Shown here in pieces: positions 54,445-57,507 of a stretch of 64,000 nucleotides of DNA. Location of the stretch: the NCBI GenBank assembly GCA_030685235.1, contig MU839089.1, forward strand, positions 543,800 through 607,799. Direction: 5' to 3'. This DNA is from Copromyces sp. CBS 386.78. Taxonomy: Eukaryota; Ascomycota; Sordariomycetes; Sordariales; Sordariaceae. A program made the position numbers and the translations under genes. The notes under the pieces are model-generated. The model ran no database searches. It saw nothing but the letters and a program-made list of their open reading frames with translations, and was not told the DNA's origin. Numbering within the stretch: position 1 is the stretch's first letter; each line of letters begins with the position of its first letter.

Positions 54445-56290
54445 TCAATAGTCAATACTGTGCGTTCCCAGCCAAAAAGCCACGACCCTCTCCATACTGG
54501 CCCGTCCCCATTGTGTCGGCGGTGCCGTCTCTTGGAGAAACCTCGCTCCTGCCTTTGCAATCACCACGTTGATCAGCGCTCGAGCATTGGCATCCAAATT
54601 TCCTGGGGGGTCACAGAAAGGCGGGCCACCCAGGATGCGGCGAGCCTCATCCGAAATCGGGACGAGTTCCCCCTTGGGGCTTACCACGCAGAGCCAGGGG
54701 GGCTGGCGATCCTGGGGACTATGAGACAACGGATGGAAGTACTCGGGGGCCAGTCCATACTTCTCAAGCCAGCTGAGCAAGGACGGAAGAACCGCGTAGC
54801 GAGAAAGGAGGAGAACAGGGATCGTGGAGAGATCTTCCAGGGGTGGGTTGGTGATGGATTGTAGTCTAGTGGTTGATTAGCTGTGCGTTGCTCTCGTTGA
54901 AGAAGCTATCTTGTGGAGGAGAGGATAAGGGGCAGGGACTATTCGAAGTACGTGCCTGGTTGAAAGTTCAGTGAAGGCGACCAATCCCGATACTTCTAAC
55001 TGTCTCTTTTCGCAACGAAGATCCTCGAGGCAGAAGATGATTGCCGGCCTGGTGGGGCATTCGCTGCTGTACCGGGAGGCTCGTTCGACACTTTGAATCC
55101 GACATAGTGACTTATCGCGCAGCATATCCTCGGCGGAAAGTAAAAAGAGAGAGAGAACTCGAAAGTGGCTGTATTTAGGCATTTGAAGGCCGATGTCGTG
55201 AAATGTTTCCTCGGTCTCTGAGTAAGCTTTGTTAGACGGCTGGTTGATTTGATAGATGCACCGAATACGTACGTTCCTAGCGATCTCCGTGGAGACCAAG
55301 GACCACCTTCATAGCCTCTTGCCATTCCGGCTTCATTCGACCGTGGTGGCCAAATACATGCTTGCGCTGATCAGCTGTGTTGACATGCGGCTTAAACTCA
55401 ACCTTTGAGTCCGCCGTGGTACTGGTAGAAGCGGACCATGGCCTAGTCGGTAGGACGGAGCTCTCGACAGGCTGCGTAGGTTGCTCCTGCGGGGGTGCCC
55501 TCAATTTGGACGAGATGATAGCCGGGTCAATAGAAGCTTGCTGTGGGGGTATCTTTAACCTGGACGACACGGTAGACGGGTTTATAGGAGCTTGTTCGCC
55601 GTGTTGAGCCTGGTTGCTCTGTTGAACCTGCTTGCGCTGACCAGCTATGTTGACATGCGGCTTAAACTCAACCTTTGAGTCCGCCGTGGTACTGGTAGAA
55701 GCGGACCATGGCCTAATCGGCGGGACGGAGCTCTCGAAATGAGCCACAGGCTGCGCAGGTTGCTCCTGTGGGGGTGCCCTCAACTTGGACGAGATGATGG
55801 CCGGGTCAATAATAGAAGCTTGCTGTGGGGGTGTCTTCAACTTGGACGACATGGTAGACGGGTCTACAGGAGCTTGTTCGCCCTGTTGAACCTGGCTGCT
55901 CTGTTGAACCTGCTTGCTCTGACGAGCCCGCTCGCTCTCACGGGTCAAGACGTCTCGCCAGGCATCGCTCTGACGGGCCAGGTTGATTCGCTAGATAGGC
56001 TGGTCTGACAAGTCGAGCTGTTCTGGCAAGTCGGGCTGCTCCGAGGCGACAAGGGTGTCTTCCGAGTCCGAGTGCACTGGCGAGACAGGCTTCTTTGAAT
56101 GAGCCCGCTCGCTCTCACGGGCCAGGACGTCTCGCCAGGCCTCGCTCTGACGGGCCAGGTTGATTCGCTAGATAGGCTGGTCTGACAAGTCGGGCTGTTC
56201 TGGCGAGTCAACAACCGTGTCTTCCGAATCCGAGTGATCTGGGACCGACCCTTCTGAAAGGGTTGGTAACTTGTCATTATTGTAAGACAT
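54445..56290 (-). CDS. Hypothetical protein with three in-frame UAG codons
   Basis: Exons 56290-55273, 55217-54956 and 54865-54445 join into exactly 567 codons in one frame. Only three internal stops occur, all TAG, at codons 41, 100 and 338 (56170-56168, 55993-55991, 55279-55277). Intron 1 is a normal GT-AG intron; intron 2 needs a GC donor (AG|GCACGT) with a TAG acceptor and is 90 nt. The N-terminal part has two 177-bp repeat units (HSDSEDT ... RINLARQS.AWRDVL), then two 270-bp units (SSKLRAPPQEQP ... DSKVEFKPHVN). The C-terminal 220 residues look globular (MPKYSHFRVLSLFLLSAEDM, LEDLSTIPVLLLSRYAVLPS, WLGTHSIDY). I do not recognise the family. Either a lightly decayed pseudogene or a gene whose UAGs are recoded. 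Confidence 0.6.
55375..55914. repeat. 270-bp tandem repeat, two copies, in coding frame
   Basis: Blocks such as TGACATGCGGCTTAAACTCA recur at 55380 and 55650, a period of 270 bp (90 codons). The copies differ by substitutions and small in-frame indels. Outer boundaries are approximate. Confidence 0.8.
55935..56250. repeat. 177-bp tandem repeat, two copies, in coding frame
   Basis: GGCCAGGTTGATTCGCTAGA occurs at 55977 and 56154, a period of 177 bp (59 codons). Both copies carry the TAG at the equivalent codon. Outer boundaries are approximate. Confidence 0.8.
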
Positions 56291-56710: not shown

Positions 56711-57507
56711 TCAAAAGCCCAACTTCCCAGCAAGTCCAGAGAACGTCCTCGTAAGAGCAAAGCCCTCCTCCGACTCATCTGAAGTGCCTGTCGCCGGGGC
56801 CGGGAAGATGGGCTTCTTCGTCTTCGGATCCTTGTAGGCCCTCAGCGCATCCTCAATAGCCTGCAGCCTCGCCTGTTTCTCCTCGTCCATCTTGAGGAAC
56901 GCCTCCTCCCTCTTCTTTCCCTCTTCCAACTGCATCTCCAAATCATTTATCCTCTGCACGTTCGGATCGGGCTTTGACGAGGACCGGTAGTACTCGTACA
57001 GTAGCAGCGAGCTAGCAATCGTCAAGATAAACACATCCCCAATCACATCCGCAAACAGATCCACGGCCTTGGGCTCGGGCAACGGCCGGAACTTGCGCCT
57101 CCATATGCTTTGGGGTGGCTCCTTGACGGGATGCGACTCCTGTGGCACGACGCCGTACTTGGCTTTGAGTTCCTCCTCTTTGCGTATTTGCTCCTCTGTC
57201 TTGACCGTGGGCGCTTCGGCTTTCTCCTTTGCTTCTTTTGCGCGCTGCTCGGCGTCGGCGTTTCGGAGGGCGAGGACGGACATGCGCATGTTGAGCTGGT
57301 GCATCTTCTGGCCATACTTGGCGGCGAAGGCGCGGAATCGAGGGTGTTCATGGGCTTGGTGTTTGATGTGATTCTGCGCAAAGACATGTTAGTTGTGCCG
57401 AGGAGAAGGGGAAGGGAGGGCAAGGTGGAGAGACATACTGCGCCATACTTGGAGACATGCCGCACAAAGAGGGCGGCAAGCTTGAAGAGAGGAAGGGAGA
57501 CGACCAT
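56711..57507 (-). CDS. OPA3-like mitochondrial protein
   Basis: Exons 57507-57439 and 57373-56711 give 243 residues. The start MVVSLPLFKLAALFVRHVSK and the following HIKHQAHEHPRFRAFAAKYGQ segment are the signature of the OPA3 family, mitochondrial membrane proteins linked in humans to optic atrophy and 3-methylglutaconic aciduria. A charged region with REEEL-type repeats follows, then a hydrophobic segment (DLFADVIGDVFILTIASSLLLYEYYR) and a coiled coil (NDLEMQLEEGKKREEAFLKMDEEKQ). The tail is longer than in animal OPA3, as usual in filamentous fungi. The 65-nt intron keeps phase. An earlier ATG does not fit the conserved start. Confidence 0.92.

Follow-up and report, generated by a model that had tools for sequence, protein, structure and literature searches.

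A gene on the minus strand of the window (the whole stretch of 64,000 nt analysed here) is a candidate for premature-stop correction by A-to-I mRNA editing: its long frame is interrupted only by three TAG codons, behind which lies a domain that appears to be under purifying selection. A requirement for editing of UAG to UGG is plausible from the sequence, though unproven by it, and its chances are judged to be about evenly balanced. According to this reading, the locus would be a real, fast-evolving Sordariaceae gene with a full-length product that depends on recoding of the internal UAGs.

The frame comprises 567 codons including the stop and two introns (Table 1), and the only stops inside it are the TAGs at codons 41, 100 and 338. 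Re-derivation of the model yielded the same codons and the same A positions as given in the earlier note; its further statements, that the frame is free of TAA, TGA and frameshifts and that the repeat indels are in frame, hold on recount (repeat spacings of 177, 270 and 282 nt, all multiples of three). Exon 1 is open beyond chance: its coding frame has 3 stops as compared to 10, 14, 23, 9 and 16 for the five remaining ones, and base shuffles of exon 1 contain a mean of 11.9 stops, with 3 or fewer at P 0.0005. Intron 2 at 54955-54866, whose GC donor is unusual, is the sole one among the enumerated models to yield 567 codons. The annotated protein of Pseudoneurospora amorphoporcata (P0001) has the identical residues across its junction (ELSTR-LQSITNPP), which lies at the same place in those of Sordaria sp. 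(P0002) and in P0003. The upstream neighbour (56711-57304, minus strand) is an OPA3-type gene according to a Pfam match.

Table 1. Features of the candidate gene, with positions given in the window
Feature	Position	Strand	Remarks
Exon 1	55273..56290	-	begins with ATG 56290; 339 codons and 1 nt; holds the three in-frame TAGs and two internal duplications
TAG 1 (codon 41)	56168..56170	-	context CUAGCGA; candidate edited A 56169
TAG 2 (codon 100)	55991..55993	-	context CUAGCGA; duplicate of TAG 1; candidate edited A 55992
TAG 3 (codon 338)	55277..55279	-	context CUAGGAA; four bases upstream of intron 1 donor; candidate edited A 55278
Intron 1	55218..55272	-	55 nt; GTACGT...CTAAC...CAG
Exon 2	54956..55217	-	conserved domain, first half; in-frame ATG at 55182 is the model start in two relatives
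Intron 2	54866..54955	-	90 nt; GC donor; CAG/GCACGT...CTAG (slash, exon border)
Exon 3	54445..54865	-	conserved domain, second half; closes with TGA 54447-54445
Repeat A copy 1	56101..56209	-	contains TAG 1
Repeat A copy 2	55924..56032	-	contains TAG 2; 5 differences in 109 nt
Repeat B copy 1	55626..55927	-	blocks 55626-55754 and 55811-55927
Repeat B copy 2	55356..55645	-	blocks 55356-55484 and 55529-55645
Ataxin-2-type segment	55642..55807	-	166 nt, 80 % identical to L002 1501-1666; part of repeat B copy 1

A search with the protein encoded in exons 2-3 retrieved four matches among 401 candidates, the best being that of P. amorphoporcata (95 % identity), followed by proteins of Sordaria sp. 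(65 %) and Neurospora tetraspora (51 %) and by a partial match (P0004, 60 % over 38 %). Judged from the best match, a single protein, the source would belong to the Sordariaceae near Pseudoneurospora; its placing in Neurospora by the earlier note is not supported by these results. To assess conservation of the domain, columns in which Sordaria sp. and N. tetraspora have the same residue were defined as conserved (101 of 207 ungapped columns). Of the 11 residues at which the window departs from P. amorphoporcata, none is in these 101 columns and all are in the 106 variable ones (hypergeometric P 0.0005), and therefore the domain, which lies behind every one of the TAGs, seems to be kept rather than decaying. 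Purifying selection on exons 2-3 is thus indicated by the alignment, which alone is no proof of translation through the UAGs. Known domains were found neither in Pfam (E up to 10) nor in NCBIfam (E up to 1), and no sequence match to the domain was obtained in the PDB. Since the predicted structure was poor (mean pLDDT 44.3) and a fold search with it gave no match at E 0.001, structure was left out of the interpretation. A literature search returned no genome paper for P. amorphoporcata.

All four annotated relatives lack exon 1. For P. amorphoporcata and Sordaria sp., the gene models begin at the Met encoded at 55182, which is invariant across five aligned sequences; for N. tetraspora and P0004, they begin within the region aligned to intron 1. 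Searches for homologues of exon 1 (2766 proteins scored, candidates of about 186-591 residues) yielded none at E 0.001, and searches for full-length homologues via residues 300-565 (2399 scored, candidates of about 311-990 residues) none at E 0.1. Such absence is expected if the relatives have stops there too; it would also result if exon 1 were simply missing from them or had diverged fast.

Conservation extends upstream of the downstream Met, where the segment ETEETFHDIGLQ matches ETDAIFHDIGLQ of N. tetraspora in 9 of 12 residues and the corresponding segment of P0004 in 7 of 12. The frame contains no ATG from 55299 down to the one at 55182; therefore, a protein started at an ATG of this frame includes ETEETFHDIGLQ only via exon 1. 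Protein-level conservation between the acceptor of intron 1 and the first downstream ATG suggests that coding enters from exon 1. In P0003, the residues at the N-terminus would allow for a CTAAC branch site and a CAG acceptor at the same place, as judged from back-translation rather than from observed DNA. The model of P0003 reaches the equivalent segment from an ATG located within intron 1, which means that exon 1 may be dispensable in that species.

Exon 1 is built in part from internal repeats. The two copies of repeat A (109 nt, 95 % identical) are spaced by 177 nt, i.e., 59 codons, and each carries one of the first two TAGs, which therefore represent, together with codon 338, two independent stops and not three. 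Exon 1 is also rich in codons prone to become TAG: because 23 CAG stand against 11 CAA, 5 CGA and 5 TGG, TAG is the commonest new stop to be expected, with a share of 0.56-0.59 in a neutral mutation simulation of exon 1. Missing TAA and TGA therefore mean little, and for both independent stops to be TAG is about a one-in-three event and no evidence in itself. The count of stops on which the earlier note had based the exclusivity of TAG is correct; the exclusivity is unsurprising, and the TAG-only pattern was rejected as evidence for editing.

Part of repeat B copy 1 resembles a piece of another gene (L002) and is in the same reading frame there. This gene probably is of the ataxin-2 type, considering its LsmAD match and a weak SM-ATX match (20.6 bits, below its cut-off). 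The candidate gene would in that case be of chimeric origin, with an ataxin-2-type piece within exon 1 that was duplicated there afterwards.

Constraint on exon 1 was estimated from these duplications. The duplicated units show dN/dS values of 0.52 (P 0.15) and 0.65 (P 0.28), with a pooled P of 0.09. Comparison of exon 1 with the ataxin-2-type gene over a strict core of 55 codons gave a ratio of 0.51 (P 0.068; wrong-frame control 0.70), and a long alignment of repeat B copy 1 with the same gene, which includes unrelated flanks, gave 0.57 (P 0.030). Apart from this flank-including alignment, constraint on exon 1 seems weak and is not significant. In neutral simulations (kappa 2, assumed indel rate of 0.1), the fraction of sequences that stayed free of frameshifts and acquired no more than one new stop, which had to be TAG, was 0.17, 0.025, 0.009 and 0 of 4000 at 0.02, 0.04, 0.05 and 0.11 changes per site, respectively; which divergence applies is ambiguous, with estimates of about 0.02 changes per site from the repeat core surrounding the TAG and of about 0.11 from the longer alignment.

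The surroundings of the three TAGs were compared with the editing motif reported for Fusarium graminearum (-2 C/U, -1 U, +1 A/G, +2 G, +3 A/G, +4 A/G; PMC9600606). TAG 41 and TAG 100 agree with it at 5 of 6 positions each and TAG 338 at all 6. For comparison, 198 CAG codons from long open stretches of the window were scored at the four free positions, with 18.2 % of them reaching 3 and 5.6 % reaching 4; of the 27 CAG codons of the gene itself 3 score 3 and none scores 4. By our own arithmetic, for a comparison chosen after the fact, the chance of one site with at least 3 plus one with 4 is near 0.02. Location in a hairpin loop is a preference, applying to about 62 % of published edited sites (PMC4817773). 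Predictions in 61-nt windows at 25 °C (two runs) assign hairpin-loop probabilities of 0.26-0.34 to codon 41, 0.88-0.90 to codon 100 and 0.03 to codon 338, and the predicted probability of being unpaired is at least 0.89 for each of the three A in either run. Predicted loop placement accordingly fits at codon 100, is doubtful at codon 41 and fails at codon 338. In a ranking of 238 tested A of exon 1, the sites come at the 59th, 78th and 34th percentile (codons 41, 100 and 338), and therefore structure around the TAGs is not special.

The main alternative, considered a serious though lesser possibility, does without editing: exon 1 would be a relic or a 5' leader, and the domain (about 214 residues) would be translated from the ATG at 55182. 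In a variant of this view, translation would begin at some other ATG and yield a shorter protein, with TAG 338 spliced out as part of an alternative intron 1. The model starts of P. amorphoporcata and Sordaria sp. at the invariant Met agree with this, as does the lack of significant constraint on exon 1. Moreover, 16 of the models obtained by testing 366 intron sets with 12 ATGs are open into the domain, the simplest having 370 codons with an ATG at 55852 and an intron at 55422-55218. However, all 16 use the donors GTACCA, GTCCGC or GTCCTT, which are weaker than the consensus GTACGT of intron 1. Protein-like conservation upstream of Met 55182 is likewise unexpected for a leader, and the 339-codon frame of exon 1 has far fewer stops than the other frames. 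A precedent for the involvement of splicing is FgBUD14, for which both editing and alternative splicing of a stop-holding intron are described (PMC11156358). Were exon 1 a relic leader, the locus would serve as a warning that CAG-rich repeats easily give rise to TAG-only frames and to well-matching editing motifs.

Alternatively, the gene may have been broken recently by ordinary or RIP-type C-to-T mutation of CAG to TAG, with no recoding involved, which is considered improbable. The predominance of TAG among the new stops to be expected would suit such an origin. A change of CAG to TAG takes place in a CpA context, which is preferred by RIP, and the TpA/ApT index of exon 1 is raised (0.89 vs 0.65 for the window). 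On the other hand, the (CpA+TpG)/(ApC+GpT) index is at window level (1.15 vs 1.17), RIP-like contexts account for 5 of the 25 differences between the B repeats, and a genome search that skips very common words found no long duplicate elsewhere, but one 166-nt match at 80 %; RIP is thus not supported. Furthermore, the TAG is common to both copies of repeat A, which have since gained their 5 differences, and the domain behind the stops seems to be under selection. With exons 2-3 constrained and the frame devoid of other lesions, decay into a pseudogene is not supported either, which applies to exons 2-3 more than to exon 1 with its non-significant constraint. Partial translational readthrough of UAG or an error of the assembly consensus is regarded as very improbable: three readthrough events in series would probably leave very little product, and it is hardly to be expected that three errors would all give in-frame TAGs, in two cases within separate copies of a repeat.

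Recoding by editing, as put forward in the earlier note, is thus favoured by selection on the domain, the conserved residues ahead of the downstream Met and the motif agreement of all three sites, and disfavoured by the hairpin prediction at codon 338 and the weak constraint on exon 1. It also demands three edits on one molecule, and it competes with open models arising by splicing, albeit at weaker splice sites. If editing does occur, the known fungal A-to-I mRNA editing by Tad2-Tad3-Ame1 in fruiting bodies would be its most likely basis, with virus-induced OLD deaminases as less likely editors. Exon 1 and exons 2-3 would then form one mRNA, the edited codons (UGG) would insert Trp at the three sites, and an unedited transcript would, from the start at 56290, give a 40-residue peptide, the C-terminal domain not being made from that start. 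One may further speculate, as a rather unlikely extension, that internal duplication copied an editable stop together with its context and thereby placed several A-to-I edits in series. The amount of full-length protein would then rise as the product of the editing levels, in the manner of a steep developmental switch. Partial editing of the single transcript would generate graded products of 40, 99, 337 and 566 residues, the gene being a chimeric one with an ataxin-2 piece.

Premature-stop-correction genes known from Sordariomycetes include PUK1 of F. graminearum and NCU03242 of Neurospora crassa (PMC4817773, PMC11156358). Features shared with the genes described there are a UAG with U at -1 in an otherwise open frame, a pseudogene-like annotation that avoids the stop, and conserved sequence beyond the stop. 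By contrast, editing of the present gene is a candidate from sequence, there are three UAGs of which two are copies of one repeat, the family is devoid of known Pfam or NCBIfam domains, and hairpin placement is poor at one site. Genes that are readable only after UAG editing escape annotation pipelines; about 70 such genes are reported for F. graminearum (PMC4817773, PMC11156358). Should the editing reading be true, the locus would add a candidate family in which the gene models of the relatives retrieved here lack exon 1, and it would offer a case, open to testing, in which duplication has multiplied an editing site. One fast-evolving gene of the Neurospora group arose by partial gene duplication. 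That gene is linked to RNA editing (PMC8092558, PMC9315408); the present gene resembles it in its fast evolution and possible tie to editing, with no indication of spore killing here.

OLD-ZAO antiviral modules of N. crassa, in which a UAG with U at -1 is reported to be corrected by A-to-I editing (PMC12754623), offer a further comparison. Shared with these are the candidate UAG with U at -1 and the presence in the genome of two OTT_1508 deaminase loci accompanied by TAG-bearing frames; unlike in these modules, the present gene has no Pfam zinc finger and is located on a contig other than that of either locus. In the genome searched (49.8 Mb, 273 contigs), deaminase-domain matches number 7. 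About 3 kb from each OTT_1508 locus, an open frame with one in-frame TAG was observed (L021 7946 and L020 7530, plus strand). These putative zao genes, so assigned from their nearness and zinc-finger-like motifs, have TAGs with motif scores of 3/6 and 4/6 and predicted hairpin-loop probabilities of 0.99 and 1.00, i.e., sequence context is better and predicted structure worse in the gene studied here. PUK1 was dropped as positive control, since the inspected near-complete kinase match with a single TAG (C178, L017) resembles an intron. AME1 is described as a DUF726 protein (PMC11087585), and DUF726 is present at three loci in the genome, which are Ame1-type by domain only. One DUF726 match (L018; G000:C16:305775-306347) itself contains a single internal TAG.
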